This document shows, one piece after another, positions 17,717-50,122 of a DNA stretch of 54,801 nucleotides. Location of the stretch: assembly GCA_903838355.1 (NCBI GenBank), contig CAILYC010000021.1:1-54801 (forward strand). The letters are read 5' to 3'. The notes beneath the pieces were generated by a model. It was not told the DNA's origin, made no database searches, and saw only the letters and a program-made list of their open reading frames with translations. The DNA is from an uncultured Burkholderiales bacterium (GTDB lineage Bacteria > Pseudomonadota > Gammaproteobacteria > Burkholderiales > Burkholderiaceae_C). Position numbers and translations under genes: made by a program. Each line of letters starts with the position of its first letter. Position 1 is the stretch's first letter.

Positions 17717-17807
17717 GGCGCAAGGCCAGAGGGGTGAGCGCAAAGCCACAAAGCAGCAAAAACTCCTTGTCGACTTCGATGACCCCAATCTCTAAGACTT
17801 TTAAGCG

Positions 17808-18845
17808 CTAGGGTTTGACGTCGCCCTCACCCTCACCCTCACTCGCGTGCGGTGAATGAGCGGGTTGCATCTCCTCAAAATGCGACTCAAAATGGGACTC
17901 CAAATGCGAGGGCAAGAGCTCAATGGTGGCCCTGAGCCCAGGCACCGCGTTCATGAGTTCGCGCTCCACATTGCCGCGCAAAGTGGCAGCACGACCGAGA
18001 CTCCAACTCTCGGGCATGTGCATGTGCAAACTGACATAGCGGCGCTGCCCCGCACGGCGGGTCGCCACATGGTCAAAGCGGATCACCTCACTGCGCTCAT
18101 TGTGATGGGCAAATTGATCCAACACGGCTTGAATTTGCGCTTGCACTTGCGGCTCCAAGGCCTCGTCCATGAGACCCTGCGAGGACTCCCATAGCAGACT
18201 CAGACCCTCTTTCAAAATCACCAAGGCCACCCCCAAGGCCACCACCGAGTCAAGCCAACCCCAACCGGTGAGGGCCACCAAGATCAAGCCCACCACCACC
18301 CCAGCTGAGGTCCAGACATCGGCCATCAAATGCTTGGAGTCGGCCATCAAGGCAATCGAGCGGTGTTCCTGGGCCACGGTTTTCATGATCCAAGACAAAA
18401 GACCATTGAGCGCTGAACTGAGCACCGATAGCGTCAAGCCCCAGCCCAAAAGCCCCACGGCCTGGGGGTGAAGCAAACGCTCCACGGCGGCCCAAACAAT
18501 CCCCAGCGCCGCCACCCCAATCAAGATCCCCTCAAAGCCAGAGGAAAAATACTCGGCTTTGTGATGCCCATAGGGGTGTTCCTCGTCGGCAGGGAGGCTG
18601 GCAAGCGTCACCATCATGAGCCCAAAGATGGCACTGGCCAAGTTGACCAAGGACTCCATCGCGTCCGACAACAATCCCACCGAGTCGGTGATCCACCACG
18701 CCCAGGTTTTCATGGCAATGGTGATGATGGCCACCACCACCGAGGCTCGCAACAGACCCTTGGGTGTGAACCATCTGGCACGAAACTGGATCCAATACGT
18801 CGTCAAATCAATCTTTCTTTGCGCAGGGTCATGGCTTTTGCACAA
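17808..18845 (-). CDS. Cation diffusion facilitator transporter (FieF/YiiP-like)
   Basis: This is an inner-membrane antiporter that exports divalent metals (zinc, iron or cadmium) in exchange for protons. Six hydrophobic segments are visible between about residues 33 and 215. The metal site is formed by D54 and D61 in TDSVGLLSDAMESLVN and by the H-x3-D of KHLMADVWTS. A cytoplasmic C-terminal domain follows, with VIRFDHVATRRAGQRRYVSL. The last 35 residues carry two tandem repeats (HLESHFESHFEE; SEGEGEGD) and are probably disordered. The frame opens with TTG at 18845; no upstream or nearby ATG fits the family N-terminus, so TTG is likely but unproven. It converges on ybeY with a 91-nt gap, one of the proposed inversion breakpoints. 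Confidence 0.9.
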   Translation of the reverse strand: MCKSHDPAQRKIDLTTYWIQFRARWFTPKGLLRASVVVAIITIAMKTWAWWITDSVGLLSDAMESLVNLASAIFGLMMVTLASLPADEEHPYGHHKAEYFSSGFEGILIGVAALGIVWAAVERLLHPQAVGLLGWGLTLSVLSSALNGLLSWIMKTVAQEHRSIALMADSKHLMADVWTSAGVVVGLILVALTGWGWLDSVVALGVALVILKEGLSLLWESSQGLMDEALEPQVQAQIQAVLDQFAHHNERSEVIRFDHVATRRAGQRRYVSLHMHMPESWSLGRAATLRGNVERELMNAVPGLRATIELLPSHLESHFESHFEEMQPAHSPHASEGEGEGDVKP

Positions 18846-18974
18846 CCCGGCTTTGCTTTGCGTTGGGACTTTGGAGAGTATGCATCCCGTGGGTCATGCT
18901 TTGATGACCTCTTGCCCAGCGCTGTTGCACGCTGTCGCACGTTTGCGAAAGTTGGCGCAAATTAGCAGTGCAGT

Positions 18975-20216
18975 TCACGACAGCGTCACCCTGGCAAATC
19001 GGCGCTTGCCCACTTGCAGCACCAAGACGCCCGCCTCGAGTTTCACCGCATGGTCTGAGACCAACTCACCGTTGATCTTCACGCCTTGGCCGGCGATCAA
19101 TCGGTTGGCTTCACCGACAGACGCGGCCAATCCCGCGGCCTTGATCATGGCCCCCACCCCAAGTGGTGCACCGCTCAACACCACCTCGGGCAAATTCTCG
19201 GGCACGCCGCCCTTGCTCCTCAGCGCAAAATCCTCTTGGGCCTGGGCCGCCGCCGCCGCACCATGAAAACGTTCGGTGATTTCCAGGGCCAACGCGTCTT
19301 TCACCACCTTTGGATTCAAACCCTGGGCCACCTCGCTGCGCAAGGCCTCGATCTGGGCCATGGTTTTAAAGCTGAGCAAGGGGTACCAACCCCACATCAA
19401 CTCGTCGCTGATGGACAGCACCTTGGAGAACATGCTGCTCGGGTCCTCGGTGATCCCAATGAAGTTGTTCTTGCTCTTGGACATCTTGTCCACGCCGTCC
19501 AAGCCCACCAACAAGGGCATGGTCAAGATGCACTGCGGCTCTTGTCCGTACTCTTGCTGCAGATGTCGACCCATCAAGAGGTTGAACTTTTGATCGGTGC
19601 CGCCGAGCTCCAAGTCGCTCTTCAAGGCGACGCTGTCATAGCCTTGCATCAAGGGGTACAAAAATTCATGCACGCTGATGGACTGGCCCGACTTGAATCT
19701 CTTGTTGAAGTCGTCACGCTCCATCATGCGCGCCACCGTGTAGCGAGCGGCGAGCTCAATCATCCCTCGCGCTCCCAGGGGATCACTCCACTCGCTGTTG
19801 TAGCGAATCTCGGTTTTTTCGGGGTCAAGCACCCGAGACGCCTGGGCGTAATAGGTTTTGGCATTGTCTTCAATTTGTGCTTTGGTCAAGGGCGGACGCG
19901 TCGTGTTGCGCCCCGACGGGTCTCCAATCATGGAGGTGAAGTCACCAATCAAAAAAATCACCTGGTGACCCAAGTCTTGGAGTTGGCGCATCTTGTTGAG
20001 CACCACCGTGTGGCCCAAGTGGATGTCGGCCGAGGTGGGGTCCAGGCCGAGCTTGATGCGAAGCGGCACGCCGGTGGCTTCAGAACGCACGAGCTTGTTC
20101 GTCCATTGTTCGATCGGAAGCAGCTCATCGCAGCCCTTCAAACTCACCTCCAAGGCGGCTTTCACGGCAGAACTCAAAGGGATGGGCGCAAGACTCGGGG
20201 GGGCGTTGTCGTTCAT
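18975..20216 (-). CDS. tyrS: Tyrosyl-tRNA synthetase
   Basis: This is a class I aminoacyl-tRNA synthetase that charges tRNA-Tyr. The HIGH box appears as DIHLGHTVVLNK, the KMSKS loop as VDKMSKSKNN. The segment IFLIGDFTSMIGDPSGRNTT marks the TyrRS type common in proteobacteria of this group. The C-terminal S4-like RNA-binding domain reads ANRLIAGQGVKINGELVSDH. Length is normal (413 aa). Position and N-terminus support ATG 20216, yet the bases before it carry no Shine-Dalgarno: a run of nine Cs (plus-strand G9 at 20222-20230) occupies that place. A further C7 run lies in codons 5-7. It is divergent from the M23 peptidase. Confidence 0.97.
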   Translation of the reverse strand: MNDNAPPSLAPIPLSSAVKAALEVSLKGCDELLPIEQWTNKLVRSEATGVPLRIKLGLDPTSADIHLGHTVVLNKMRQLQDLGHQVIFLIGDFTSMIGDPSGRNTTRPPLTKAQIEDNAKTYYAQASRVLDPEKTEIRYNSEWSDPLGARGMIELAARYTVARMMERDDFNKRFKSGQSISVHEFLYPLMQGYDSVALKSDLELGGTDQKFNLLMGRHLQQEYGQEPQCILTMPLLVGLDGVDKMSKSKNNFIGITEDPSSMFSKVLSISDELMWGWYPLLSFKTMAQIEALRSEVAQGLNPKVVKDALALEITERFHGAAAAAQAQEDFALRSKGGVPENLPEVVLSGAPLGVGAMIKAAGLAASVGEANRLIAGQGVKINGELVSDHAVKLEAGVLVLQVGKRRFARVTLS

Positions 20217-20221
20217 GGAAT

Positions 20222-20436: not shown

Positions 20437-20672
20437 GCAAAACTCTTATTGGCTCAGTCAAGCCCTTATTTTATCCCTTTGCGACTCACCCTACACTCCT
20501 GCAGAGCTTGACGCCCGTGTTTTTCTAGAGTGCCCTGTCCCGTGGCTGTGGTTCTTTCTGGCTTGAATGGCCTTTGAGACCCAGGACCCCTTACCCTGGG
20601 GTCGACAACGCTTTTTTATGGATCCGCACCTTGGGGCCTTTGGCGCCAAGGGACACTTCGGTTTTTTTGATC

Positions 20673-22145
20673 ATGTGGCTCTTACTTAAACAGTCCGCCT
20701 TGCAATCGATGCACTGGGGACTCGACCAAATCGAACGATTGCGCCGCGGCGAGCGAGCAACCCTCTCCCTCCTCTTGCAAGCCCTGTTGGCACTTTGGGT
20801 CGTGGGTGCGGGCGCCTCCTATGCCTTGGTCAGTCTGGGCCCCGATGCCGCCCTCCTTGCTCCACATACCCTCAGGCTGGACCTCAACTGGGCACAATTG
20901 CAAGCCCTGGCCCCGGCGGGGGCCGACAACCTCAACTTGGTCAACTCACCCCAAACCATGCTCGAAGGCAGCCCCCAAGACGCGCAAGAGCCCTTCAAAA
21001 ATACCGGCCCAAACGCTGCCCGTGCTGGCCTAGGGCTTTACCGCACCGACTGGTCTCGAAGCAACGACAGCGCTCAAAGCCTCCTCACCCGACTTGACGT
21101 GCGCGACCCCAAAGCGCGTGAGTTCATCGCCAGCAACCCGCTCGCGCGCGCCAATCTTCTGGGCAAAGCGCAGCGTTTGGTGAGCGTCAACACCAATGCC
21201 CAGCACGAACTCGAGGAGATCGTGGTGCGTTGGGCCCACGACTCGGACCGCTCGTTTAGTCGCTTGGTGATCCACAAAACCCCCAGCGGCTTCTCCGCCA
21301 AAATCGACGTCGCCCCGCTCGAGGTGTCGACCCAAATCGCAGCGGCCACCATTCAGAGCTCGTTTTACCAAGCCACCGATGCGGCCCATATCCCGGACCG
21401 CCTGGCCAACCAGATGGTGGAGATCTTCTCGGGCGACATCGATTTTCACCGCTCGCTCAGAAAAGGCGACCACTTCACCCTCCTTTATGAGACCTTGACC
21501 GCAGACGGCGAGCCCCTCCAAACCGCCCGGGTCTTGAGCGCCGAGTTCGTCAACCGCGGCAAGCCCTACCGAGCGATCTGGTTCAATTCGGGCGAGACCG
21601 CCACCTCGGGCTACTACACCATGGAGGGGCTGACCTTAAAGCGCCTGTATCTGGCCGCTCCCCTGGCGTTTTCTCGCATCACCAGCGGTTTTAAGATGCG
21701 TTTTCACCCCATTTTGCAAGAGTGGAAAGCCCATTTGGGGGTGGATTACGCCGCCCCCGCGGGTACGCCCGTGCGCACCGTGGCCAATGGCGTGGTGGAC
21801 TTTGCGGGTGTGCAAAATGGCTATGGCAATGTGATCTTGATCAAACACCCGCAAGGCACGACCACGGTCTATGCCCACTTGTCGCAAATCGGCGTGCGCA
21901 AAGGCCAATCGGTCGAGCAAGGCGAGAGAATTGGCGCAGTGGGCCAAACCGGCTGGGCAACGGGTCCGCATTTGCACTTTGAGTTCCGTGTCAACGGCCA
22001 GTACCAAGACCCCGAACGCATGGCCCGGCAAAACGCACCCATTCCCTTGGCCACTGAACTCAAACCCGCCTTTGAGCGCCAGGCCTTGCAAGCGCGAAAC
22101 GTGCTCCAAGAGACCTCCGTCTTGGAAACCGTGGACATTGATTGA
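20673..22145 (+). CDS. M23 family peptidoglycan metallopeptidase
   Basis: The protein has an N-terminal cytoplasmic piece, one membrane segment (LLQALLALWVVGAGASYALV) and a large periplasmic part, so it is anchored in the inner membrane. The C-terminal LytM/M23 domain shows the zinc ligands H-x-G-x-D in KAHLGVDYAAPAGTPV and H-x-H in GPHLHFEFR, with NVILIKHPQGTTTVYAHLSQ between. A LysM/OapA-like region precedes it (FSGDIDFHRSLRKGDHFTLL). The likely role is cutting peptide cross-links during growth or division. The frame runs from TTG 20574, but ATG 20673 (MWLLLKQSAL) is the first conventional start and gives 490 aa. anmK follows after 33 nt. Confidence 0.9.
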   Translation: MWLLLKQSALQSMHWGLDQIERLRRGERATLSLLLQALLALWVVGAGASYALVSLGPDAALLAPHTLRLDLNWAQLQALAPAGADNLNLVNSPQTMLEGSPQDAQEPFKNTGPNAARAGLGLYRTDWSRSNDSAQSLLTRLDVRDPKAREFIASNPLARANLLGKAQRLVSVNTNAQHELEEIVVRWAHDSDRSFSRLVIHKTPSGFSAKIDVAPLEVSTQIAAATIQSSFYQATDAAHIPDRLANQMVEIFSGDIDFHRSLRKGDHFTLLYETLTADGEPLQTARVLSAEFVNRGKPYRAIWFNSGETATSGYYTMEGLTLKRLYLAAPLAFSRITSGFKMRFHPILQEWKAHLGVDYAAPAGTPVRTVANGVVDFAGVQNGYGNVILIKHPQGTTTVYAHLSQIGVRKGQSVEQGERIGAVGQTGWATGPHLHFEFRVNGQYQDPERMARQNAPIPLATELKPAFERQALQARNVLQETSVLETVDID

Positions 22146-22178
22146 GCGCCAACGGCCCCTATTGACCCAGCCTTCCTC

Positions 22179-23363
22179 ATGAGGCCAACTCCCCCCAATG
22201 CTCTTTATATTGGCTTGATGTCGGGGACCTCGATGGACGGCGTGGACGCCGTCTTGGTCGATCTTTCCCGAGGGTTTGAGGCCCGAGCTGAACACTTTGT
22301 CTCCTACCCTGCGGCGCTCAAAGCCACCCTCTTGGCCTTGAACACCCCTGGCGCCAACGAGTTGCACACCAGCGCCCTGGCCGCCAACGAGGTCGCCCGC
22401 CTCTACGCCCAAGCGGTCAATGCCTTGCTCAGTGAGGTCTGCCTCAAGCCCAGTGACATCACTGCGCTTGGGGCCCATGGCCAGACCGTGCGCCACCAAC
22501 CTGGCCGGCACGACTCAGAGGGCTACACCACACAACTCTTGAACGCGGCGCTTTTGTGCGAGCTGACCGACATCGACGTGGCCTATGACTTTCGCGCCCG
22601 CGATGTCGCCGCACAAGGCCAAGGCGCCCCCTTGGTGCCGGCTTTTCACGACGCTTTGTTCGCCCAAGAGCAAGGTGGCGTGGCGGTTTTGAATTTGGGC
22701 GGCATCAGCAACCTCAGTTGGCTCCCACCCCTGTCACAAGGCGTCAAGCGCAGGCTCCTGGGGTTTGATTGTGGGCCAGCCAATGTATTGATGGACGCTT
22801 GGGTGCAAGAGCACACCGGCGCCCCCTTTGACCGGGGTGGCCTTTGGGCCGCCCAAGGCCAGCTTCATCGAGGTTTGCTAGAAACCCTCCTCGCCCATCC
22901 CTATTTCCAATTGCCCCCACCCAAAAGCACTGGGCGCGACCTCTTTCACCGAGCCTGGCTTGAGGCCCAATTGGAGCAGTGTTTTGGGCTGGAGAACCCA
23001 GCACTCACGCCGAGCGCCCAAGATATCCAAGCCACCTTGCTTGAGCTCACCGCTCGCACGTGTGTGCAGGCTTTGGCCCGCACCCCCCCACCGGGTGCAG
23101 TCGTGCAGTCGCTCATCGTGTGTGGTGGAGGCGCCAACAACCACACCCTCTTGGCGCGTTTGGCCGATCTCTGCGCCGAGGACCCGGTCTTGGCACACAC
23201 CCAAGTGAAGAGTTCAGCGCAGTTGGGAATTGGCGTGCATTTGATCGAAGCCTTGGCCTTTGCCTGGTTAGCGTACAAAAGAGTGCGGCTTGAATGCGCC
23301 AATGCACCCAGTGTCACGGGTGCTTTAGGGCCCCGGGTTTTGGGCTCCCTCGTCAAAGCCTGA
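22179..23363 (+). CDS. anmK: Anhydro-N-acetylmuramic acid kinase
   Basis: AnmK opens and phosphorylates 1,6-anhydroMurNAc from cell-wall turnover to MurNAc-6-phosphate in the cytoplasm. The N-terminal phosphate loop YIGLMSGTSMDGVDAVLV is diagnostic. ALGAHGQTVRHQPG, YDFRARDVAAQGQGAPLVPA, NLGGISNLSWLP and LIVCGGGANNHTLLARL follow in family order. Length (394 aa) is slightly above normal. The gene lies just after the M23 peptidase, a common pairing in Burkholderiales, and complements the lytic transglycosylase at 6.9 kb, which makes its substrate. Confidence 0.96.
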   Translation: MRPTPPNALYIGLMSGTSMDGVDAVLVDLSRGFEARAEHFVSYPAALKATLLALNTPGANELHTSALAANEVARLYAQAVNALLSEVCLKPSDITALGAHGQTVRHQPGRHDSEGYTTQLLNAALLCELTDIDVAYDFRARDVAAQGQGAPLVPAFHDALFAQEQGGVAVLNLGGISNLSWLPPLSQGVKRRLLGFDCGPANVLMDAWVQEHTGAPFDRGGLWAAQGQLHRGLLETLLAHPYFQLPPPKSTGRDLFHRAWLEAQLEQCFGLENPALTPSAQDIQATLLELTARTCVQALARTPPPGAVVQSLIVCGGGANNHTLLARLADLCAEDPVLAHTQVKSSAQLGIGVHLIEALAFAWLAYKRVRLECANAPSVTGALGPRVLGSLVKA

Positions 23364-23740: not shown

Positions 23741-23758
23741 ACAACTCGATCGAGAGGA

Positions 23759-25367: not shown

Positions 25368-25490
25368 GTTTTGGGCTGGAGCAGGACCCGTGTCTGGCTT
25401 CTCGCGGCCACACAGACCCACACCTTCAATCCAAAAACGTTGTTTTCCAACACCTTTTGGACCCGACTTAGGGGTTACCATCGCTTCCCT

Positions 25491-26396
25491 ATGTTCAGTT
25501 ATCGTCACGCCTACCATGCCGGCAACCATGCCGACGTCTTAAAGCACAGTGTGCTCATCTCCATTGTCAAGTACATGACAGAAAAGCCCGTGCCCTTGTC
25601 CGTCATCGACAGCCACGCGGGCGCCGGTCTTTATCGCCTCGACAGCCAAGCCCTGGCGCTGAGCGGCGAAGCGGGGGAAGGCATTGAGCAGTTTTTAAAA
25701 GACCCCCGTCCTTTGAGCAGCACCTTGCTCAAAGACTATGTCGAGACACTCACGGCCTTTAACACCGGCAAAAAAACCACGCTGTACCCGGGCTCACCCT
25801 TCATCATCCAGCATTATTTGAACGCGAGCGACCGCTTGAAGCTCTTTGAGCTGCACCCCACCGACACCCGACTCTTGGAGCAGCACGTCGCCCAATTGCG
25901 CGCCGCGCGCCAAGTGGCGGTCCTGCGCGAAGACGGGTTTGAGGGGATGAAGAAATTTCTGCCGCCAAAAAGCAGGCGTGGCTTGGTCCTCATGGACCCG
26001 AGCTACGAAATCAAATCCGACTACGCCAAAGTGGCCCTGAGCATCCAGGACTGTTTGCGCCGCTTTGAGACCGGCACCTACATCGTCTGGTACCCCCTCA
26101 TTGCAAGAGCACATGCCCACGATTTGCCCAAGCGCCTCAAAACCCTGGCCCAACAAGCCCGCCGCCCTTGGCTGCACCTGTCTTTGATCGTGAAATCGAG
26201 CAAATTCACGACGCTACCGGGTCAACTCGTTGACGTGATGGATCGTCAAAAACGACCTGGCTTGCCCGGGTCTGGGCTTTTTGTGATCAACCCCCCCTAC
26301 ACCTTGGCGGGTTTGGCCAAGGAGGCCATGCCCGAATTGCTCGAACGCTTGGGGCAAGACGATCACGCCAATTTCGTCATCGACTCGGGCGGCTGA
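25491..26396 (+). CDS. rlmJ: 23S rRNA (adenine(2030)-N(6))-methyltransferase RlmJ
   Basis: RlmJ methylates A2030 of 23S rRNA. The N-terminus MFSYRHAYHAGNHADVLKHS is diagnostic and fixes the start at ATG 25491; the frame extends further upstream without homology and across the rplM promoter. The SAM-binding part includes VIDSHAGAGLYRLDS. The catalytic motif is DPSYE (LVLMDPSYEIKSDY), where the N6-adenine methylase consensus is DPPY; a serine at this place also occurs in relatives. The gene is 301 aa, slightly longer than E. coli RlmJ, and is divergent from rplM. It converges on metF. Confidence 0.93.
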   Translation: MFSYRHAYHAGNHADVLKHSVLISIVKYMTEKPVPLSVIDSHAGAGLYRLDSQALALSGEAGEGIEQFLKDPRPLSSTLLKDYVETLTAFNTGKKTTLYPGSPFIIQHYLNASDRLKLFELHPTDTRLLEQHVAQLRAARQVAVLREDGFEGMKKFLPPKSRRGLVLMDPSYEIKSDYAKVALSIQDCLRRFETGTYIVWYPLIARAHAHDLPKRLKTLAQQARRPWLHLSLIVKSSKFTTLPGQLVDVMDRQKRPGLPGSGLFVINPPYTLAGLAKEAMPELLERLGQDDHANFVIDSGG

Positions 26397-26415
26397 AGAC
26401 CACCTCTGGGTGCTC

Positions 26416-26432
26416 TGAGCGCACAACGCTCA
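26416..26432. terminator. Short hairpin between convergent rlmJ and metF
   Basis: TGAGCG-CACAA-CGCTCA is a perfect six-pair hairpin in the 90-bp convergent gap. No T-run follows on either strand, so terminator function is uncertain. Confidence 0.35.
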
Positions 26433-26486
26433 CCTCAGTGAACTCACCCCATGGTCAAAGCGAGAGACCTGGCGCGGCCCATTGGG

Positions 26487-27335
26487 TCACCGCCAGCCCA
26501 AATGGTCACAGATGCCCAAAATGGCCTCGCTTTGGTTGAGGCTGTAAAAATGGATGCCCGGCACCCCTGCGCGCTGCAACTCCTCACACAATCGCGTCAT
26601 GACCTCGAGCCCAAAGGCCTTGATCGAGACTTGATCGTCACCGTAAGACTCCAGGCGTTGGCGTATCCAACGCGGCACCTCAGCGCCACAAGCGTCTGAG
26701 AAACGCAGCAGTTGCGAGGAGTTGGTGATGGGCATGAGACCGGGCACGATGGGGATATGAACAGAGTGAGCGCTCACATCTTCCACGAACCTGAAGTAGG
26801 CCTGGGCGCTGAAAAAATACTGGGTGATGGCAGAGTTCGCCCCAGCTTTGACTTTTTCCACAAAGGCCCGCAAATCTGCTGGGTAGGAGCGCGCTTGGGG
26901 ATGGGTCTCGGGGTAAGCCGCCACTTCGACGTGGAACCGCCCGGGAAACTCGCGCACCACAAAGGCCACCAAGTCTTTGGCGTAAGTGAACTCACCGTTC
27001 GAACCATAGCCGCTGGGCAAGTCCCCCCTCAAGGCCACAATGCGGTGCACGCCCATGGCGGCCAAGCGCGTCAAGTGCTCGCGCGCCGTCGCCGCGGTGG
27101 CCCCAACACAAGAATAATGCGCCACCCCCACATGGCCCTCGTTGATGATGTCCTGAACGGCCCTCAAGGTGCCTTCTTGGGTCGAGCCGCCCGCACCAAA
27201 GGTCACGGAACAAAACTCAGGATTCAAGGTGTAGAGCTCTTGGCGAACCGCCCTCAAGCGCTCCACCCCCTGGGGGGTCTTGGGCGGAAAAAACTCAATG
27301 CTCAATGCGGGTTTGGCGGTGCTGGGGTGTGTCAT
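26487..27335 (-). CDS. metF: 5,10-methylenetetrahydrofolate reductase
   Basis: MetF is an FAD enzyme that reduces methylene-THF to 5-methyl-THF, the methyl donor for methionine synthesis. The N-terminus LSIEFFPPKTPQGVERL is typical. It is followed by FCSVTFGAGGSTQEGT, HYSCVGATAATAREHL, RIVALRGDLPSGYG, VEVAAYPETHPQAR and the FAD/folate-contacting GANSAITQYFF. ATG 27335 (MTHPSTAKPAL) gives 282 aa, normal length. It lies downstream of ahcY on the same strand, 380 bp away. The two enzymes act in the same methyl cycle, and the riboswitch upstream of ahcY might also influence metF if transcription reads through. Confidence 0.96.
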   Translation of the reverse strand: MTHPSTAKPALSIEFFPPKTPQGVERLRAVRQELYTLNPEFCSVTFGAGGSTQEGTLRAVQDIINEGHVGVAHYSCVGATAATAREHLTRLAAMGVHRIVALRGDLPSGYGSNGEFTYAKDLVAFVVREFPGRFHVEVAAYPETHPQARSYPADLRAFVEKVKAGANSAITQYFFSAQAYFRFVEDVSAHSVHIPIVPGLMPITNSSQLLRFSDACGAEVPRWIRQRLESYGDDQVSIKAFGLEVMTRLCEELQRAGVPGIHFYSLNQSEAILGICDHLGWR

Positions 27336-29149: not shown

Positions 29150-29179
29150 GTCTTGATACTCCAATGAGAAGGGTTAAGA

Positions 29180-29219: not shown

Positions 29220-29220
29220 G

Positions 29221-29340: not shown

Positions 29341-29346
29341 CTCAGG

Positions 29347-37445: not shown

Positions 37446-37503
37446 TGCAGTGACGGGCCCAGCTTTGTCAAACGCGCAGGGCGAGTCAAAAGCCTAGGAC
37501 TGT

Positions 37504-40386: not shown

Positions 40387-40396
40387 GCCGTACCGA

Positions 40397-41107
40397 CTAA
40401 GCGAGGTCAAAAGGTGGTTTTGATGAGGGCTGTTGTGGCGAGGTCAGATCCGAGTCAGTCACCTGGGGGTAGCGCTGGTAGGCCCGCGTCAATGCCGGGC
40501 TCAACTGCTCGGGCGCATTGACGCTCACCTCCAAGTCTTTCAAAAGACCATCCTTCAAGCCATAAATCCAGCCGTGCACGCTGATCGCTTGCCCTCGACG
40601 CCAAGCGTCTTGCATGACATTGGACTCGGCCACATTGCCCACTTGTTCAATCACATTCATCTCACACATGGCGTCTTCCAAGGCATGCTCATGCAAATGG
40701 TCGAGCCGCTTTCGGTGGCGAAAGCGCACATCCTTCACGTGTCTGAGCCAGTTGTCGGCCAAACCAATGCGGGCCCCACGGGTGGCGGCCAACACGCCTG
40801 AGCAGCCGTAATGTCCCACCACCATGATGTGCTCCACCTTCAATTGCTCAACGGCAAACTGGATTACCGACAAAGCATTCAAATCCGAGTGCACCACCAC
40901 ATTGGCGACATTGCGGTGCACAAACACCTCGCCTGGGTCGAGTCCCGTGATCTCGTTGGCCGGCACACGAGAGTCCGAGCAACCGATCCACAAGTATTTG
41001 GGGCTTTGTTGTTGCGCCAAGTGCTGAAAAAATCCAGGGCGCAAGGCCTCCATCTTGAGCGCCCAGGTGCGGTTGTTGTCCAGAAGTTGTTGCAGTGCAG
41101 AGGTCAT
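40397..41107 (-). CDS. can: Beta-class carbonic anhydrase
   Basis: The enzyme interconverts CO2 and bicarbonate in the cytoplasm and supplies bicarbonate for carboxylation. Zinc ligands C43, H99 and C102 and the D45-R47 dyad are seen in WIGCSDSRVP and MVVGHYGCSGV. VFVHRNVANVVVHSDLNAL is also typical. The last 25 residues after YQRYPQ are a variable, Ser/Pro-rich tail. Length is 236 aa. It is the first gene of a three-gene operon with the HAD phosphatase and DUF1289. There is no strong ribosome-binding site. Confidence 0.95.
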   Translation of the reverse strand: MTSALQQLLDNNRTWALKMEALRPGFFQHLAQQQSPKYLWIGCSDSRVPANEITGLDPGEVFVHRNVANVVVHSDLNALSVIQFAVEQLKVEHIMVVGHYGCSGVLAATRGARIGLADNWLRHVKDVRFRHRKRLDHLHEHALEDAMCEMNVIEQVGNVAESNVMQDAWRRGQAISVHGWIYGLKDGLLKDLEVSVNAPEQLSPALTRAYQRYPQVTDSDLTSPQQPSSKPPFDLA

Positions 41108-41348: not shown

Positions 41349-42656
41349 TCAGGTTTGCCTCAGCGCCTGCCACGCTTGCCAATTGGGCATGGGCGTTTTT
41401 TGGAGCAAGGCTCGCCGCGACTCATAGTCGGGCATCACGCGCGCCACCACCGCCCAAAACTCAGGGCTGTGATTCATGTGCAAGAAGTGACTCAACTCGT
41501 GCACCACCACATAGTCCAAGAGGACCATCGGCACATGGGCCAATTGGCGATTAAAGGCAAGCACGCCGCGGGCATTGGCGCTCCCCCACCGAGTGGCCGC
41601 TCGGCTGAGTTTGATCTGCGACCAACTCACCCCCACCATCGAGGAAAAATGTTGGACCCGGGACTCGATGATGGCCAACAAGACGCTGGACAACCAGGCA
41701 TGAATCCAATCGACCAACAGACATTTGTGCCGATCAGGGAGGTCTTCAATCAACACCACCGCGCCCCCCGAGCCTGACCCTGATTCTGAGCCCGAGCCCG
41801 AGCCCGAGCCCGAATCCGAATCCGAATCCGAATCCGAACTCGAACTCGAACTCGAACTCGAATTCAAACTCCAGGGCAAAACCAACCGCAGCGTAGGACC
41901 TGTGCCATCGGCTTGCCAAGAAAACGGCGAACTCGCTTCGCGCTCAAGCCACCAAGCTGGCGCCGCCTCTGTCCATTGCCCTTGACGCATGACCCACAAG
42001 CGCGCCTTGTCCAAGCTTTGCCGACTCTGCTGCCCAAGCGCGCGCCTGGCTTGGCCTTGAACAGCGTGAACACCGTGAACACCTTGATCGCCCTCGGTGC
42101 TGAGCACCACCTCCATGGGCACGCCGAGCAAAGGCAACACCAGGGGCGAGCTCAGGGGCAGCGCCCGGGCCGAGAGCTCAAGCTGTCTTGTGCGCATGAG
42201 TTTCAATTGACACAATATCCAACTTTGCTTTTCTGTCAAAGCGTCCAAGATTTGCGCCACACTGACCCACCTCGGGGCAGACACCTCGAGTCCCTTGGGG
42301 CCCACCACCATGCCGATGGTTTTTCGCGAACTTCGCTTGAGCCAGTAATGAACGCGAGCGTCGGACCACTCCAAGGTGCGGTTGGCGCTTGGGTGAACAT
42401 ATTCAAGGCGTTCAAGAGCCCTTTGCGGCCGAACAAGAGCGCCAGCGAAGGGCTGCTCGACGCGGCTCGGAGTTGGGTTGGGGGCAGCAGTCTTGGAGGC
42501 GACCGGTGCTGGAACAAGTGCTGGAACAAGTTCAGGCACAGGCTCAGGCACACACTCAGGTACACACTCAGGTGTAGGCTCAAGTGCAGACCCAGTCTTT
42601 AGAGGACTCGCCGTCAAAAAATCAAATGCCATTTGAACGTAGCCACCCAACCCCAT
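41349..42656 (-). CDS. DUF45/YgjP-like zinc metallopeptidase with repeat insertions
   Basis: The HExxH motif lies near residues 386-390 in VVVHELSHFLHMNHSPEFWA, the form typical of YgjP-like (DUF45) proteins. WSQIKLSRAATRWGSANARG and LAFNRQLAHVPMVLLDYVV precede it, and the third ligand region follows. At 435 aa it is well above the usual 230-300. The extra length comes from a Pro/Glu/Val repeat near residues 26-50 (ECVPECVPEPVPELV) and from a Ser/Asp/Gly repeat near 263-298 (SSSSSDSDSDSDSGSGSG) coded by 6-bp DNA units. ATG 42656 has GGTGGA seven bases upstream; 42632 is possible. It ends the corC-lnt-glyQS-gmhB-plsC cluster. Confidence 0.85.
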   Translation of the reverse strand: MGLGGYVQMAFDFLTASPLKTGSALEPTPECVPECVPEPVPELVPALVPAPVASKTAAPNPTPSRVEQPFAGALVRPQRALERLEYVHPSANRTLEWSDARVHYWLKRSSRKTIGMVVGPKGLEVSAPRWVSVAQILDALTEKQSWILCQLKLMRTRQLELSARALPLSSPLVLPLLGVPMEVVLSTEGDQGVHGVHAVQGQARRALGQQSRQSLDKARLWVMRQGQWTEAAPAWWLEREASSPFSWQADGTGPTLRLVLPWSLNSSSSSSSSSDSDSDSDSGSGSGSGSESGSGSGGAVVLIEDLPDRHKCLLVDWIHAWLSSVLLAIIESRVQHFSSMVGVSWSQIKLSRAATRWGSANARGVLAFNRQLAHVPMVLLDYVVVHELSHFLHMNHSPEFWAVVARVMPDYESRRALLQKTPMPNWQAWQALRQT

Positions 42657-42758: not shown

Positions 42759-43520
42759 CTATGGCTCACCTTTGACATAGGCCTCAGGATCCAATCGCTG
42801 CATTTCCCGCTCGATCCAGTCCTGAACCTCGAGCATCAAGTCTTGCGCACTTCGCCCCACACTCGAGATCGGTGGCCCCATGGAGACCTCCACAAGGCCG
42901 GGGATTTTCACAAAAGCACGCCGCGGCCAACACCGTCCTGAGGTCACCGCCACCGGCACCACATAGGCCTGCGTCTCAATCGCCAAGCGAGCACCGCCGA
43001 GCTTATAAGACCCCACCTCACCTCGAGGGGTGCGGGTGCCTTCTGGAAACATGATGACCCATACACCGCGGGCCAACAAATCACGACCTTGACTCACCAC
43101 CTTGGCAAAGGCACGAGCACGGTCAGCGCGATCAATGTGGATCATGTCGAGTCGACCTATGGACCAACCGAAAAAGGGAATGGCAAGCAGCTCTTTTTTA
43201 AAAACATAGGCCAGCGGCTTGGGCATGATGGCGGGCATCAACAAAGTCTCGTAGGCCGATTGATGTTTCATGAGCAAAACGACGGGCACGTCCCCAAGGG
43301 CCAACACCCGCTCCAGACCCTGCAACCGGTAACGCACCCCACAAAACCATTGCGCCGCATCGACACTGCTTTTGAGCCAAGCCCGGGCCCATGGATAAAG
43401 TCGCACCTTGGAGGCGCCCAAGCCCCCAAGCACCACGATGGCGAGTGAATAGGGCACCACCGTGACCCCCATCCAGAGCAAGTGCACACAGGAGCGAAGA
43501 AAATAAAAGCCGCGTCTCAT
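42759..43520 (-). CDS. plsC: 1-acyl-sn-glycerol-3-phosphate acyltransferase
   Basis: PlsC adds the second acyl chain to make phosphatidic acid at the inner membrane. There is an N-terminal hydrophobic segment (VHLLWMGVTVVPYSLAIVVL). The catalytic box, usually HX4D, reads HQSAYE (H86 to E91), a form also found in other Burkholderiales. The second box is FPEGTRTPRGEVGSYKLGGA. ATG 43520 overlaps the gmhB stop (ATGA), which fixes the start and gives 253 aa; the longer frame to 43589 lies inside gmhB. Confidence 0.92.
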   Translation of the reverse strand: MRRGFYFLRSCVHLLWMGVTVVPYSLAIVVLGGLGASKVRLYPWARAWLKSSVDAAQWFCGVRYRLQGLERVLALGDVPVVLLMKHQSAYETLLMPAIMPKPLAYVFKKELLAIPFFGWSIGRLDMIHIDRADRARAFAKVVSQGRDLLARGVWVIMFPEGTRTPRGEVGSYKLGGARLAIETQAYVVPVAVTSGRCWPRRAFVKIPGLVEVSMGPPISSVGRSAQDLMLEVQDWIEREMQRLDPEAYVKGEP

Positions 43521-44119
43521 GGCGAAACCCGCAATGCGCGCTCGCTCAAGGTTTTTTGGGAAGCATTTTCCCCCTCGTTCAGTAGCCACTCAGAAAACGC
43601 AAACAAATCTGCATGGACACGGGTGTTCTTGGGGAAATCGGGTGTGAGCGATTGGGTCCGAAACGGCTCACCTTTTCCGGTGAGAACCAAGTGCGGCATG
43701 CAACCCACCAGCGCCCCCGCTTGCAAGTCCCGCAAGGAGTCCCCCACCGTGTGCACAGCCTTGAGGTCGACACCGGTGCGTCTGGCAATTTGCTCAAAAA
43801 GCCCCGAGAGCGGTTTTCTGCAATCGCACCGATCGTCGTTGGTGTGCGGACAAAAGAAGATGGCCTCCACCCGAGCGCCTTCTTGCGCCAAGAGGTGATT
43901 CATCTTGTCGTGCATGGCGTTCAAGGTGGCCACATCAAAAAGCCCTCGGCCCAAGCCCGATTGGTTTGACGCCACCACCACGCGCCAACCCGCATGGTTC
44001 ATCTTCGCGATGGCTTCCAAGGCGCGCGGTAAGGGGCGCCACTCGTCGGGGGATTTCACATAATCGTCGCGATCTTCATTGATCGTGCCGTCGCGGTCCA
44101 AGATGATCAGTTTGGTCAT
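43517..44119 (-). CDS. gmhB: D-glycero-beta-D-manno-heptose-1,7-bisphosphate 7-phosphatase
   Basis: GmhB removes the 7-phosphate in ADP-heptose synthesis for the LPS core. The HAD motif LDRDGTINED has nucleophile D8 and acid D10. The zinc loop typical of GmhB is present as CPHTNDDRCDC (C90, H92, C98, C100), followed by RKPLSGLFEQIA and TVGDSLRDLQAG. Length is 200 aa. It lies 85 nt after glyS and overlaps plsC by 4 nt. In Burkholderiales this position between glyS and plsC is conserved. Confidence 0.94.
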   Translation of the reverse strand: MTKLIILDRDGTINEDRDDYVKSPDEWRPLPRALEAIAKMNHAGWRVVVASNQSGLGRGLFDVATLNAMHDKMNHLLAQEGARVEAIFFCPHTNDDRCDCRKPLSGLFEQIARRTGVDLKAVHTVGDSLRDLQAGALVGCMPHLVLTGKGEPFRTQSLTPDFPKNTRVHADLFAFSEWLLNEGENASQKTLSERALRVSP

Positions 44120-44204: not shown

Positions 44205-46379
44205 TCAAGCCAAACGCGACAAATCGGCCACCCGGTTCATGGCGGTGTAGAGTTCACGCAAGAGGGCCAAGCGGTTGTCTCGCAATGCCGGGTCTGGCGC
44301 GTTGACCATGACGTGCTCAAAGAAACGGTCCACCGGAACCTTGAGCTCGGCCAGGCTTGCCAGCGAGGGCGCATACTGGCCCTGCTCAAACAAGGCCTGG
44401 GAGCGCGCGAGGCTCACGGCCATGGCGTCAAAGAGCGCGCGCTCGGCCTCCTCTTGGAACAAGGCCACTTGCAGCGTCAACGCGGTGGGCAGAGTGGATT
44501 TTTTCAATATATTGCCGATGCGTTTGTTTGCCCCCGCCAGCGCACTCGCTTCGGGCATCAAGGCAAACTGTTTGACAGCTTCAAGGCGTTTGTCGACATC
44601 GTCGAGCCGGTCAAAGCTCAAGGACAAAACCGCATCAATTTGTGCGCTGCTCAATCCTGCGTCTTTGAAGACACCCGTGAGCCTCTCGCCCACAAACGCC
44701 AGCAACTGGGCCATCGACTCGCCCCAGTTCAAGGCCAGCGTAGTGCCATCAAACACCGATTGGGCTTGTTGCAGCAAGGTGCTCAGCGACAGATTCAAGC
44801 CATTGGCCATGAGCAAACGGATCACCCCGAGAGCTTGGCGGCGCAAAGCATACGGATCCTTGTCGCCCGTGGGCTGCTGGCCAATGCCAAAAAGACCAAC
44901 CAAGACCTCGAGCTTGTCGGCCAAGGCCAAAATTTGACCGACCCGATCTCGGGGCAAATCATCCCCTGCAAAACGCGGCTTGTAGTGGTCCTCAATGGCC
45001 TGGGCCACACTCAAAGCATAGCCGTCGTGCAAAGCGTAATAGTTCCCCATGGTGCCTTGGAGCTCAGGGAACTCGCCCACCATGTCGGTGAGCAAATCGA
45101 CCTTGGCCACCCGCGCGGCCTCGTTCACCCAAGTGCGCTGCTCGGCAGTGATGACGCCCGCCGCCGTCAAGTCTCGTGCGATCAAATCGGCCAAGGCACA
45201 CACCCGCAAACTGCGCTCGGCCTGGGTGCCCAGTTTTTGGTGATACACCACTTGACCCAATGCGGGCACGCGCGAGAGCAAGGTTTTTTTCTGATCTTGT
45301 TTGAAAAAGAACTGCGCATCGGCCAAACGCGGTCTGACCACACGCTCATTGCCTTCAATCACGGCGCTGGCATCCATGGGAGAGATGTTGCTCACCACCA
45401 AAAAATGGTGGCTCAGTTGGCCACGCTTGTCCATCAAGGGAAAATATTTTTGATTGGCCTTCATGGTCAAAATCAAGCACTGTGGCGGGACACTCAAAAA
45501 CTCGGGGTCAAATTGGCAGGCCAAGACGTTGGGGTGCTCCACCAATGCGCAAACTTCGTCAAGCAACGCCTCATCCTCCAACACACTCAAGGACGCTGCG
45601 AGACTGTGGGCCACACTTTTTAACTGGTGGCGTATCGATTCGCGCCGAGCCTCAAAACTGGCCATGACGCGGCCCTCTTGGAGAAGCACCGCCTCATAGT
45701 CGCCCGGTTTGGCGATGGTCAAACTGGGCTTTAAAGCCTCAAACCTGTGCCCCTGGGTGTGGTTCGTGGCGTGCAGACCGAGTGCGCTCAGGGCCAAGAC
45801 CTCGGTGCCATAAAGCGCCAAGAGCCCGTGCACGGGTCGCACAAAATGCACACTGCTCCAGCCTGGCAAGGCGCAATCGCGGTGCAACTGGTAACTCATG
45901 AGCTTGGGGATGGGGAGGGCTTTCAAACTGTCATTCAACGCTTTTTGCGCCCCCTCGGCAAGAGAGACACCCGCTTGCTGGGTCTTGGCCCACAAATTGA
46001 CTTGTTTGCCGTCCTCTATTCGCACCAAGTCTGAGCCCTTCAAATGGGACAAACCCAGCGCTGTGAGCTTCTTGGTCAAGGCCGGCGTCGGCTCACCTGC
46101 CGCGTCCAAGCCCACCGCCAAGGGCATTAACTTTTGTTCAAGTGCTTTGTCGCTGGCTTGGGCGCGCACACCGTGCACGCGCACGGCCAAACGCCTTGGC
46201 GTGGCAAAGCCTTCAAAACGCGCATCTGCGAGCGTGAGTCCCTGACTCACCAAGCCATCAAAGAGTCCTTTGGCAAATGCCTCGCCCAAAGTCTTCAAGG
46301 CCTTGGGAGGCAACTCTTCGGCCAAGATTTCGATGAGCAGGTCTTGCCCGACTTCGGCGCTATTGAGGGTGGTGCTCAT
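44205..46379 (-). CDS. glyS: Glycyl-tRNA synthetase beta subunit
   Basis: GlyS is the tRNA-binding subunit of the heterotetrameric bacterial GlyRS. Family parts include [20 protein letters not shown] at the start, [34 protein letters not shown] and [13 protein letters not shown]. Further in are [20 protein letters not shown], the HD-like [32 protein letters not shown] and the C-terminal anticodon-binding part ending [13 protein letters not shown] 46379 ([10 protein letters not shown]) overlaps the glyQ stop (ATGA); 724 aa is slightly longer than the E. coli subunit (689 aa). Confidence 0.97.
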
Positions 46380-47287
46380 GCTTGCACCGCCTTTGGCGGC
46401 ATCGCGGCCACCCAATCGGGGGGGGCCATGGGAAAGCCCAAACGCTCGCGACTCTCAAGATAACTTTGAGCGACCGATTTGGCCAAATTGCGAATGCGCG
46501 TGATGTAGCCTGCACGCTCGGTCACACTGATGCTGCCTCTGGCGTCGAGCAAATTAAAGGTGTGCGCGGCTTTGAGGACTTGCTCATAGGCAGGCAGCGC
46601 CAACTGCTCGGTCATCAAATGAAGCGCTTGTTTTTCGTGGGCGTTGAAGGCCTGAAACAAAAAGGCCTGGTCGCTGTGCTCAAAGTTGTAGGCCGATTGT
46701 TCTTTTTCATTTTGCAAATACACGTCACCATAACTCAAACCCTGGGTCCACACCAGGTCATAGACATTGTCCACGCCTTGCAAATACATCGCCAAACGCT
46801 CCAATCCATAGGTGATCTCACCCGTGATCGGCTGACAGTTGACGCCACCGACTTGTTGAAAATAAGTGAACTGCGTCACCTCCATGCCGTTTAACCAAAC
46901 CTCCCAACCCAGCCCCCAGGCGCCCAAGGTGGGGTTCTCCCAATCGTCTTCGACAAAACGGATGTCATTGCGCTTCAAATCAAACCCCAAGGCCACCAAG
47001 GAGCCCAAATACAAATCCAAAATATTTTCAGGCGCGGGCTTCAAGACCACTTGGTATTGGTAGTAATGCTGCAGCCGATTGGGATTTTCGCCATAGCGTC
47101 CATCCTTGGGGCGGCGAGAGGGCTGAACGTAGGCCGCACGCCAAGGCTCTGGCCCCAAGGCACGCAAAAACGTGGCGGTGTGTGAGGTGCCCGCCCCCAC
47201 TTCCATGTCGTAGGGCTGCAGCAAAGCGCAGCCGTGCTCGGCCCAATACGTCTGAAGCGTCAAAATGATTTGTTGAAAATGAAGCAT
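46376..47287 (-). CDS. glyQ: Glycyl-tRNA synthetase alpha subunit
   Basis: GlyQ is the catalytic subunit that activates glycine. The N-terminus [20 protein letters not shown] and the class II motifs in [40 protein letters not shown] and [20 protein letters not shown] are invariant family features. Length is 303 aa, normal. It overlaps glyS by 4 bp. A 250-bp gap with a GAGCT array separates it from lnt upstream, so glyQS may be transcribed separately or by read-through. Confidence 0.98.
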
Positions 47288-47537: not shown

Positions 47538-49124
47538 TCAGCGGCTTGGCCGGGTGTGGCCACGCCAAGCCAGCAAGAGCAAAGCGCCCAAAGCGCCCAG
47601 CCACACAGGCCACAAGCCAAAGCGACCCGCCCACCAGGCAAAAAACGTCACGCCCTCGTGCACCCCAGAGACTCGCGTCGTCAAAATGCCTTGCGTAAAA
47701 CTCGGCAAACTCGCCAGCACGCGGGCGTTTTCATCGATGACCATGGTCGCCCCCGCATTGGTCGATCTGAGCATCGGGCGGTGCAACTCCAAGGTGCGCA
47801 TGCGAGCTATTTGAATGTGTTGATCGATCACCACAGTGTCGCCAAACCAGGCGATGTTGCTCATGTTGACCAAGAGGGTGGGCGCCGTGTTTTCTTGCAC
47901 AAAACGCTTGGCCAACTCTTCACCAAACAAATCTTCATAGCAAATATTGGGGGCGATGCGCTCACCCATGACAGACCATGAGGCCTCAAGCGTGTCACCA
48001 TGGCGGAAAAACCCCAAAGGGTTGCTCAGCTGATCGGTAAACCACTTGAACATGGGTGGCACAAACTCCCCAAAAGGCACCAAATGCGATTTGTCATAGC
48101 GGTACACGTCTCGGGCGCTCTCCCCCACCCCCACGGCCGAATTGGTGTAGCCCTGGCCATCAAGGAGTGGCATGCCAATCAAGGCCATGCGGTGCTGGGC
48201 CAAAAGAAGCGTGACCAGACTGGGGAAAAATTGGCCCGCATAGGCTTGCGGCGGTTTGGCAAAGGCCGTCTCCGGCGTGATCACCAAATCGCTCGAGGAG
48301 CGGGCAATTTGATCACGGTACCAAACGCCGCCGTCTTCGCGCGCGTGGATCAGTTGGCTGTCTTGCGGCACATTGCCTTGCAGCAAGCTCACACTCAGGC
48401 CTCGCTCGGGTATTGGGCGGGGAGTGGGTTGATCGGTCCTTGTCACAGGCCACCCGAGCAGGCTCAGGAGCATGGCCAGCGCCAAAACACCGGCCAATGC
48501 CTTGTGGCCTTTGCGCGTGTGCGTGGCCAGGAGCACACACCCCATGGCCAAGCTCGCACTCACCCACCCGAGTGTATAAACACCACCCCAAGCGGCGAGT
48601 TGCCCCAGCCACGTGTCGGTGTGCGCATAGCCCGAGGATCCCCAAGGAAAACCGGTGAACCACACCCCTCGGGCCAGCTCAGACAAGGTCCAAGAAGCAC
48701 CAAATCCAAGAGCGAGCAAGAAGGTGCGAGTCCAAGCGCTTTGGGTCACTTTCTCCTTTCCCCCATTCACCAAGAAGGCATACAAGGCAGCAAAGCCCGC
48801 CCAATAAAGCGCCAAACCCCCACAAAGGACAGCCAGCCCAAACACGGACAAAACAATCGGCATCTCGCCATAGACGTGCAAGGCGATGAAGAGCCACCAC
48901 ACCGTGGCCAAGAGCGCCGTGCATTGAAACACAAAGGCAAAACCCGCCACTCGCTTGATGCTGCCCAAGGATTGGATCACACCGGTGGCCAACACCAGCA
49001 TGGCGCACCACTGCAAAGCACCGCTGGGGCCCAGGTGATGGGGCAAACCCATGGAGAGCGCTTGCATGACACCACCGACAACCCCCAGCAGCGGCCCAAC
49101 CCAAGGCCCGCGAGAGCGACTCAT
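47538..49124 (-). CDS. lnt: Apolipoprotein N-acyltransferase
   Basis: Lnt completes lipoprotein maturation by N-acylating the lipidated cysteine in the inner membrane. The N-terminal third is strongly hydrophobic with several membrane segments. The nitrilase-like periplasmic domain has the catalytic Glu in VITPETAFAKP, the Lys in YDKSHLVPFGEFVP and the Cys in PNICYEDLFGEE. Those three residues form the triad. A final membrane segment (FFAWWAGRFGLWPVWLGALG) ends the protein. ATG 49124 overlaps the corC stop (ATGA); 528 aa. Confidence 0.95.
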   Translation of the reverse strand: MSRSRGPWVGPLLGVVGGVMQALSMGLPHHLGPSGALQWCAMLVLATGVIQSLGSIKRVAGFAFVFQCTALLATVWWLFIALHVYGEMPIVLSVFGLAVLCGGLALYWAGFAALYAFLVNGGKEKVTQSAWTRTFLLALGFGASWTLSELARGVWFTGFPWGSSGYAHTDTWLGQLAAWGGVYTLGWVSASLAMGCVLLATHTRKGHKALAGVLALAMLLSLLGWPVTRTDQPTPRPIPERGLSVSLLQGNVPQDSQLIHAREDGGVWYRDQIARSSSDLVITPETAFAKPPQAYAGQFFPSLVTLLLAQHRMALIGMPLLDGQGYTNSAVGVGESARDVYRYDKSHLVPFGEFVPPMFKWFTDQLSNPLGFFRHGDTLEASWSVMGERIAPNICYEDLFGEELAKRFVQENTAPTLLVNMSNIAWFGDTVVIDQHIQIARMRTLELHRPMLRSTNAGATMVIDENARVLASLPSFTQGILTTRVSGVHEGVTFFAWWAGRFGLWPVWLGALGALLLLAWRGHTRPSR

Positions 49125-49993
49125 ACCGTTGTGTCTTTCGGCAAAGCCTTGACCTTGAACCACTTGACCGCGCCCGCGCGGGTGTGCATCACCTCAAAAC
49201 GCAAGCCCATGAGCATATGGCTCTCGCCCTTGGTGGGCACATGGCCCATTTCATGCGCGACCCAGCCTCCGATGGTCTCGAAGGACTGCGCTTCTCCTTG
49301 GGGCTCGTTGACCAAACCAAAAGCCTGAAGAACGCGTGCAATACTCGTGTTGCCCGCGATGCGATAGGTTTGCTCACCCAGGCCAAAAATGTCGCCAGCC
49401 TCTTCGTCGGTGTCAAACTCGTCCTCAATGTCGCCAACAATTTGCTCGAGCACATCTTCGATGGTGAGCAAACCCGCGACCCGCCCAAATTCATCGATCA
49501 CCACGGCCAAGTGGTTGCGATTGACCCGAAAGTCTTTGAGCAACTCGAGCAGACCTTTGCTTTGGGGCACCATCACCACGGGTCTGAGCAAGGCGCGCAG
49601 GTTCAAATTGGGCGAGCGCTGACGTTTGAGCAAATCTTTGGAGAGCAATATACCGATGATGTGATCACGCTCGGTCTCGTACACGGGATAGCGCGAGTGG
49701 GCAATGTCGATGACTTCGTTGAGAATTTGCTCTAGAGGATCTTCAATGTTGATCATGTCCATGCGAGCCGCTGAGATCATCACATCATTGGCCGTCAAAT
49801 CGGCGATCTTCAACACCCCTTCAATCATTTGACGCGATTCGCTTCGAATGATTTTGTTGTTCTGGGCCTGAGCGAGCAACTGCAGTACATCTTGCAGCCC
49901 CTCAGGGGTGCGGTGAAAGGGGGCGGCAAGAAAACGCCCGAGCCGAGAAAACCAACTCAATGGGGGTGAAACGTAAGACTGCTGGGTCGCCAT
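49121..49993 (-). CDS. corC: CorC/HlyC family protein with paired CBS domains
   Basis: The order is a short N-terminal part, two CBS domains (about residues 65-190, including SRYPVYETERDHIIGILLSK and LAVVIDEFGRVAGLLTIEDV) and a C-terminal CorC_HlyC (transporter-associated) domain with YRIAGNTSIARVLQAFGL and FETIGGWVAHEMGHVPTKGE. In enterobacteria CorC (YbeX) is linked to magnesium/cobalt efflux and ribosome homeostasis. It normally follows ybeY; here ybeY is 32 kb away on the opposite strand. The bases before the ATG lack a Shine-Dalgarno sequence and form a hairpin. Confidence 0.94.
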   Translation of the reverse strand: MATQQSYVSPPLSWFSRLGRFLAAPFHRTPEGLQDVLQLLAQAQNNKIIRSESRQMIEGVLKIADLTANDVMISAARMDMINIEDPLEQILNEVIDIAHSRYPVYETERDHIIGILLSKDLLKRQRSPNLNLRALLRPVVMVPQSKGLLELLKDFRVNRNHLAVVIDEFGRVAGLLTIEDVLEQIVGDIEDEFDTDEEAGDIFGLGEQTYRIAGNTSIARVLQAFGLVNEPQGEAQSFETIGGWVAHEMGHVPTKGESHMLMGLRFEVMHTRAGAVKWFKVKALPKDTTV

Positions 49994-49998
49994 GGTGC

Positions 49999-50015
49999 AA
50001 GGGCCGAACGCCCTT
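49999..50015 (-). promoter_or_regulatory. Hairpin at the corC translation start
   Basis: AAGGGC-CGAAC-GCCCTT is a perfect six-pair hairpin that ends five bases before the corC ATG on the minus strand. It occupies the place of the ribosome-binding site, and any AAGGG available for 16S pairing lies inside the stem. Confidence 0.5.
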
Positions 50016-50122
50016 AGGGTGTGAAACTGTAAACCCCTAGCATAGCCGATTTGCGTGACGCACCCGTTGTCCCAAGCGTGAGGCGCGCGCAGCTCGCTCT
50101 CGCTTCAAGACCCGCCCGTCGC

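Follow-up and report, generated by a model that had tools for sequence, protein, structure and literature searches.

An old, lineage-wide separation of phoH-ybeY from corC-lnt-glyQS in Comamonadaceae-type Burkholderiales

The genes phoH (ybeZ), ybeY, corC (ybeX) and lnt form a single operon in Salmonella, as described in PMC12421838. In contig CAILYC010000021.1 of an uncultured Burkholderiales bacterium (assembly GCA_903838355.1, family Burkholderiaceae_C), whose full 54,801 nucleotides are here referred to as the window, the same genes are neither adjacent nor on one strand. The run is cut exactly between ybeY and corC, with the two halves facing each other 32 kilobases (kb) apart. This locus raises the question of when the cut was made and by what kind of rearrangement. 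An initial reading based on the sequence alone had proposed a recent inversion of about 32 kb, spanning positions 17717-50122, in this genome or species. The split is instead an old, fixed gene order shared by the lineage, and not an event of this genome. Taken as a whole, it very probably goes back to a rearrangement with the geometry of an inversion, which became fixed long ago in the Comamonadaceae-type lineage and was later reshaped.

The window spans the entire contig C21 in a genome bin of 72 contigs that is 87.6% complete, and its gene families were assigned through Pfam profile matches to the open reading frames (ORFs). One half consists of phoH (16062..17084, plus strand; PF02562, E 1.8e-95) and ybeY (17081..17716, plus; PF02130, E 6.4e-22) and ends at a gap of 91 bases (17717..17807). 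The other half is located on the minus strand beyond a gap of 129 bases (49994..50122). It begins with corC (49121..49993; PF03471 and CBS) and continues through lnt (47538..49163; PF00795 and PF20154), glyQ (46376..47287; PF02091, E 1.1e-148), glyS (44205..46415; PF02092), a gmhB-like HAD phosphatase gene (43517..44119; PF13242/PF00702), a plsC-like acyltransferase gene (42759..43589; PF01553) and a gene for a YgjP-like metallopeptidase (41349..42656; PF01863), previously listed as DUF45. The inner order is intact in each half. The gene next after ybeY in this lineage codes for a CDF cation-efflux protein (17808..18845, minus; PF01545). It is followed by tyrS (18975..20216, minus; PF00579), the first gene of a block completed by an M23 peptidase gene and anmK (20574..23363, plus; PF01551, PF03702). 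Upstream of corC in the lineage lies a GNAT acetyltransferase gene (50123..50869, minus; PF00583). The ORFs, strands, coordinates and gene families of the sequence-only reading were borne out by the ORF check and by Pfam, and both short intergenic gaps are present. The name gmhB is taken from that reading and is consistent with the place of the gene in the cluster.

The age of the split is evident from the genus of the window. A search of 84 genomes gave a YbeY match in 71 and a GlyQ match in 76, with both genes on one contig in 17 genomes, the window's own included. All 17 pairs are split and convergent and none is collinear; the gap between ybeY and glyQ ranges from 26.5 to 59.0 kb, and is 28.8 kb in the window. 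From the 71 genus ybeY loci 20 were fetched, and in these corC is absent within approximately 1.5 kb downstream. Six relatives were read through (G036, G081, G033, G051, G025 and G027; G, C and L numbers denote genomes, contigs and loci). CDF-tyrS-M23-anmK follows ybeY in all six, the CDF gene being the next window gene matched after ybeY in G036, G081, G033, G051 and G025, and the corC cluster (the lnt cluster in G033) runs back toward ybeY from the far side. The GNAT gene precedes corC in G036, G081, G051 and G027. No corC match was obtained in G033, where lnt and GNAT are present, and no GNAT match in G025. In the most similar relative, G036, every gene between msbA and mbl, these two included, has the place and strand of its counterpart in the window, at 48-96% identity. 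G081 also has both of the window's junctions.

These relatives bear directly on the proposal of a recent inversion. On paper, reversal of 17717-50122 rejoins corC to ybeY, and both cuts fall in short gaps. Such an event in this genome or species is nonetheless scarcely credible and was rejected, as all 17 genus pairs are split, the junction genes and their order in G036 are those of the window, and both junctions recur in G081. The existence of relatives with the same split order thus corrects the age assigned to the event but leaves its direction, from joined to split, in place. It could also be suspected that two contigs were misjoined during assembly or binning, given a source bin of 72 contigs and incomplete content. 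An artefact of this kind has next to no likelihood and was likewise dismissed, since the convergent split is found in other genus assemblies, including the one-contig G027 and G029, and the order is the same in G036.

A recent inversion had also been thought to have left an imperfect inverted match at the breakpoints, formed by GCTAGGGTTT and AAACCCCTAGC. The match requires one gap, as the partner AAACCCCTAGC contains one extra C; GCTAGGGTTT starts at the last base of the 91-base gap, with the remainder inside the coding end of the CDF gene. Local alignment of the two junction stretches gives a score of 8, which is equalled or beaten in 121 of 300 shuffled pairs and in 121 of 297 pairs of stretches drawn at random from the window. 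The match is therefore no better than chance and was discarded as a breakpoint scar. The sequence-only reading also held that the inversion had moved two operons away from a shared promoter. Consensus scans of 49800-50250 and 17600-17900 returned no sigma-70-like promoter. Terminator-like sites number 2 versus 0.6 in shuffles in the first of these stretches and 3 versus 0.4 in the second. Two overlapping sites on the minus strand are located in the end of ybeY, where transcription of the CDF gene would stop. The scans weigh neither for nor against the shared promoter.

The direction of the change is given by the other families of the order. Of 58 genomes from these families, 39 carry ybeY and glyQ on a single contig. 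The pair is collinear within 10 kb in 28 of the 39, keeps the same order at 16 to 697 kb in five and shows another geometry in six. Eighty named genome contigs were also scored around glyQ. The ybeY gene adjoins corC (or lnt, where corC was not found) in 18 of them, including Methylotenera, Dechloromonas, Massilia, Noviherbaspirillum and Polynucleobacter. A further 34 are split and 28 could not be scored, 19 because neither corC nor lnt lay within reach and 9 because of their short length. As Gallionella and Nitrosospira are among the 34 split loci, other splits exist outside the window's family. Within the order, collinearity is the ancestral state and the split the derived one, and on both points the sequence-only reading was correct. 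Upstream, miaB precedes phoH (or ybeY, where phoH was undetected) at all 10 outgroup loci that were queried with MiaB. It was not found at 50 ybeY loci of the family, nor at the three collinear family loci G181, G109 and L115, the last of which extends only 1.5 kb upstream.

To the family as a whole, 110 genomes from 109 genera contributed, with YbeY in 110 of 110 and GlyQ in 107. Outside the genus, 46 genomes have ybeY and glyQ on one contig, with distances taken in linear coordinates. Twenty of these pairs are convergent, 18 of them within 200 kb at a ybeY-glyQ interval of 45.5 to 195 kb. Eight are divergent, nine have glyQ upstream on the same strand and nine have ybeY upstream on the same strand. 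Only two of the 46 (G109 and G181) are collinear within 10 kb. One explanation holds that phoH-ybeY was transposed out as a small unit while the corC half stayed, the facing orientation being a matter of chance. The loss of old neighbours on both sides of phoH-ybeY, namely miaB and corC, is what such a transposition would produce. It is nevertheless improbable, as ruvA and phoH are already joined in G181 while ybeY-corC is intact there. Moreover, the halves converge within 200 kb in 17 of 17 genus pairs and in 18 of the 46 family pairs, against six divergent, four glyQ-upstream and eight ybeY-upstream pairs on the same strand at that distance.

Two types of junction can be distinguished in the family. 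Stretches around both genes were read in 50 of the 110 genomes, and ORFs were clustered in 59 (these 50 and nine more); the junction counts depend on the clustering, and direct matching puts the CDF gene farther off in a few more genomes, e.g., G086 and G183. In type A, that of the window, the CDF gene lies within 6 kb after ybeY (18 of 59 genomes) and the GNAT gene upstream of corC (24 of 59), with both present in 13. In type B, hemB follows ybeY (15 of 59) and cobW-dksA, identified by a marker ORF cluster, precedes corC (19 of 59), with both present in 15. There is no overlap among the 59 genomes: the CDF gene never occurs together with the cobW mark, nor hemB with the GNAT gene. Among the named loci, GNAT immediately precedes corC in 18 of the 34 split ones and in 0 of 6 from Sphaerotilaceae. 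The named genera with GNAT-corC are Limnohabitans, Ramlibacter, Hydrogenophaga, Rhodoferax, Polaromonas and Simplicispira, all of which are Comamonadaceae; the remaining loci are Comamonadaceae without a genus, one labelled Burkholderiaceae, or unclassed. Because of this pattern, the two types are referred to as Comamonadaceae-type (A) and Sphaerotilaceae-type (B). By hand count, ybeY and glyQ converge within 200 kb in 13 of the 24 type A genomes that have them on one contig. In 6 of the 11 such type B genomes, both genes are on one strand, with ybeY lying upstream at no more than 200 kb.

The upstream neighbourhood of phoH also varies. The ruvA gene is located directly before phoH in G181 and in many split genomes. 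In the window, the ruvA ORF (15483..16106, minus; Pfam RuvA_N/RuvA_C) probably starts at 16061; it stands head to head with phoH at 16059-16106, where the mechanical starts overlap and almost no space is left between the genes. The same head-to-head arrangement, with hardly any spacing, recurs in G181 and many type A genomes. In type B genomes, such as at L194 (G111), a histidine kinase and a LuxR-type response regulator are encoded between ruvA and phoH. This kinase cluster occurs in 21 of the 59 genomes, two of which are type A (G120 and G186), and a response-regulator match before phoH is also found in G109 and L115. On contig C59 of G092 (L164), glyS-glyQ lies beside ruvB-ruvA and phoH-ybeY within 9 kb, with no lnt or corC match between glyQ and ruvB. 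In L115, G109 and G121, a clade outside both split types, lnt directly follows ybeY with no corC match between them.

The nature of the rearrangement was approached through nine collinear genomes (G216, G209, G240, G195, G109, G232, G221, G181 and G204). None of the nine carries the whole 32-kb block in un-inverted order, and the block between the two gaps was not borne out as the inverted unit. What survives of the inversion proposal is the geometry, as the facing arrangement of ybeY and corC fits it; a recent 32-kb event of this genome does not. The linear distance between tyrS and ybeY is 22 kb in G216, 40 kb in G209, 211 kb in G240, 422 kb in G195, 0.9 Mb in G109, 1.8 Mb in G232 and 2.7 Mb in G221, and tyrS is on another contig in G181 and G204. 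The tyrS block of G216 is near but in the opposite orientation. In G209 (L156, L157 and L290), ybeY, corC, lnt, glyQ, glyS, gmhB, plsC and ygjP are all on the plus strand. Past ygjP come the ORF labelled u24, anmK and the M23 gene, all minus, and then tyrS, plus, 40 kb downstream of ybeY.

This arrangement invites the view that a single old inversion of about 40 kb took place in the Comamonadaceae-type ancestor from a G209-like order, with the CDF, GNAT and middle genes added later. The gene order and orientation of G209, its tyrS distance and the facing geometry in the genus all suit this view, which is still unlikely. G209 is remote, grouping with Methylophilaceae rows outside Oxalobacteraceae, and the nearer collinear genomes are without such an order. 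The window's middle genes are not at its tyrS block, ahcY and carbonic anhydrase being megabases away, and no match to GNAT, CDF or metallo-beta-lactamase was found near its tyrS. A single inversion would place GNAT beside CDF. No CDF-GNAT adjacency was found in the stretches read from the collinear relatives, and G109 and G181 have GNAT near u24 instead. On C4 of G109, the GNAT relative lies approximately 1 kb from u24 and is 41% identical to that of the window, comparable to the GNAT beside corC in other genera (39-47%); the GNAT tree is dominated by long branches and was used only for this comparison. A weaker relative (37%) is likewise near u24 on C2 of G181. As GNAT is found near u24 in these two genomes and tyrS lies elsewhere in the nearer collinear relatives, several rearrangement steps are more likely than one. 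G181 has ruvA joined to phoH, as in the window, and an unbroken ybeY-corC-lnt-glyQS run. Its carbonic anhydrase gene follows beyond ygjP, with no change of strand, and the contig ends 22.5 kb past it. This order fits the state before the split. A metallo-beta-lactamase-fold gene is located near the u24 end of the tyrS block in G109, and in the window's lineage both the GNAT and the metallo-beta-lactamase-fold genes lie beyond corC.

The event is old and common to the lineage, has no fixed length and has left no visible scar. The history that we favour would begin with the run miaB-phoH-ybeY-corC-lnt-glyQ-glyS-gmhB-plsC-ygjP in the ancestor of the order. Near the base of the window's family, miaB would have been separated from phoH. 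A later cut, between ybeY and corC, would have fallen in the ancestor of the Comamonadaceae-type clade. The corC-lnt-glyQS half would then have come to face phoH-ybeY across a block starting with CDF-tyrS-M23-anmK, with GNAT upstream of corC. The facing geometry suggests that one step was an inversion, and there was probably more than one rearrangement, as the tyrS block is elsewhere in the nearer collinear relatives. The interval would subsequently have lengthened and shortened through ordinary gene gain and loss. The break was presumably tolerated as one half acts in ribosome maturation and the other in the envelope. Of this history, the ancestral order, the split, its age and the genes at the junctions are observed, while the inversion step, the number of steps and the reason for tolerance are inferred. 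In the ybeZ-ybeY-corC-lnt operon of Salmonella, the start site before ybeZ is joined by another between ybeY and corC, according to PMC12421838. A break at ybeY-corC would be cheap if corC had its own start site in Comamonadaceae as well.

A number of observations weigh against this history. The CDF gene was found within approximately 1.5 kb downstream of ybeY in 0 of the 20 fetched genus loci. The junction genes are not universal in the family, with CDF in 18 and GNAT in 24 of the 59 genomes. The hand count leaves 11 of the 24 same-contig genomes of type A without convergence within 200 kb. The tyrS-M23-anmK-u24 orientation in G209 is the one needed by a single inversion. Finally, the trees are built from seven proteins, and G181 is placed in them with limited certainty.

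Those trees address whether the bond between ybeY and corC was broken once or twice. A first two-gene tree (86 of 93 rows), in which Sphaerotilaceae and Oxalobacteraceae were intermingled, gave way to one of seven proteins (PhoH, YbeY, Lnt, GlyQ, GlyS, GmhB and PlsC), with 70 rows and a quick search. It contains a clade of 34 rows, comprising 29 of type A and five split rows without either mark, and a clade of 20 rows, comprising 19 of type B and one without a mark. G109, G121 and L115, in which ybeY is beside lnt, fall outside both clades, and the collinear G181 stands beside type A. A more careful tree of 32 of the 70 rows, with the unmarked G099 counted with type A, gave the same grouping and joined G181 to type A at 98/98, which favours two separate breaks. 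The alternative is a single split in the common ancestor of the A and B clades, followed by differing local rearrangements that gave the two junction types. An approximately unbiased (AU) test with all split rows held as one clade did not reject it on the careful tree (p = 0.155). On the quick 70-row tree, the held-together tree was better by 110.7 log units (AU p = 0.907), from which it follows that the quick search had missed the best tree. The CorC identities agree with a single split, at 49-60% to the window's in split genomes and 43% in G181. Only 3% of bootstrap trees, however, put the collinear rows on one side of a branch. The corC tree places G181 with the family beyond a long branch, not with the outgroups, and leaves its place among the family rows open. 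Furthermore, the junction genes of the two types do not overlap and their geometry differs, same strand in 6 of 11 type B versus convergent in 13 of 24 type A genomes. A single split is therefore a serious possibility that falls somewhat short of an even chance. We give even odds to a reading in which the sister clades lost the bond separately, at least two times in all and each by its own route: type A through a rearrangement with inversion geometry, type B through a block lying between same-strand halves. The family CorC proteins, G181 included, are separated from most outgroups by a long branch of 1.26 changes per column, which may reflect fast change or replacement before G181 parted.

The arrangement can also be set beside the known runs of these genes. 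In Betaproteobacteria such as Massilia, Noviherbaspirillum and Methylobacillus, the run is miaB-phoH-ybeY-corC-lnt-glyQ-glyS-gmhB-plsC, and both halves of the window keep its inner order, but in the window miaB is no longer beside phoH, nor corC beside ybeY. In prokaryotes, operons split and gene order drifts through inversion, gain and loss (the general process is treated in PMC12190745), and the window, with an old fixed rearrangement and a varying interval, is of the same kind. In a limited search, mostly of titles and the beginnings of abstracts, the ybeY/corC split was not named in literature on the ybeY operon or on Comamonadaceae gene order. As a rearrangement of this genome the split has little importance. 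As a break shared by a whole clade, in an operon that is commonly regarded as conserved, it advises caution, in that an order that looks broken against the textbook operon may be the normal order of a lineage. The event is ordinary, and the mildly interesting point is whether the same bond broke twice. If two independent breaks occurred, they would provide a small natural test of the need to co-express PhoH-YbeY and CorC-Lnt, and would suggest that the ribosome-maturation and envelope halves part easily where corC has its own start site.

The remainder of the interval between the halves (25371..41107) holds, by Pfam matches, rlmJ, metF, ahcY, prfC, a long uvrA and genes for an MFS protein, a HAD hydrolase and carbonic anhydrase, in the same order as in G036. 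The uvrA gene (31228-37125, minus) encodes 1,965 amino acids with several ATPase matches along its length, approximately twice the usual length of UvrA. A uvrA match of 5.7-6.0 kb is kept in the six genus relatives. In the 70-row seven-protein tree, the window is on a long terminal branch (0.81), its proteins being fast-evolving relative to most rows of the family.

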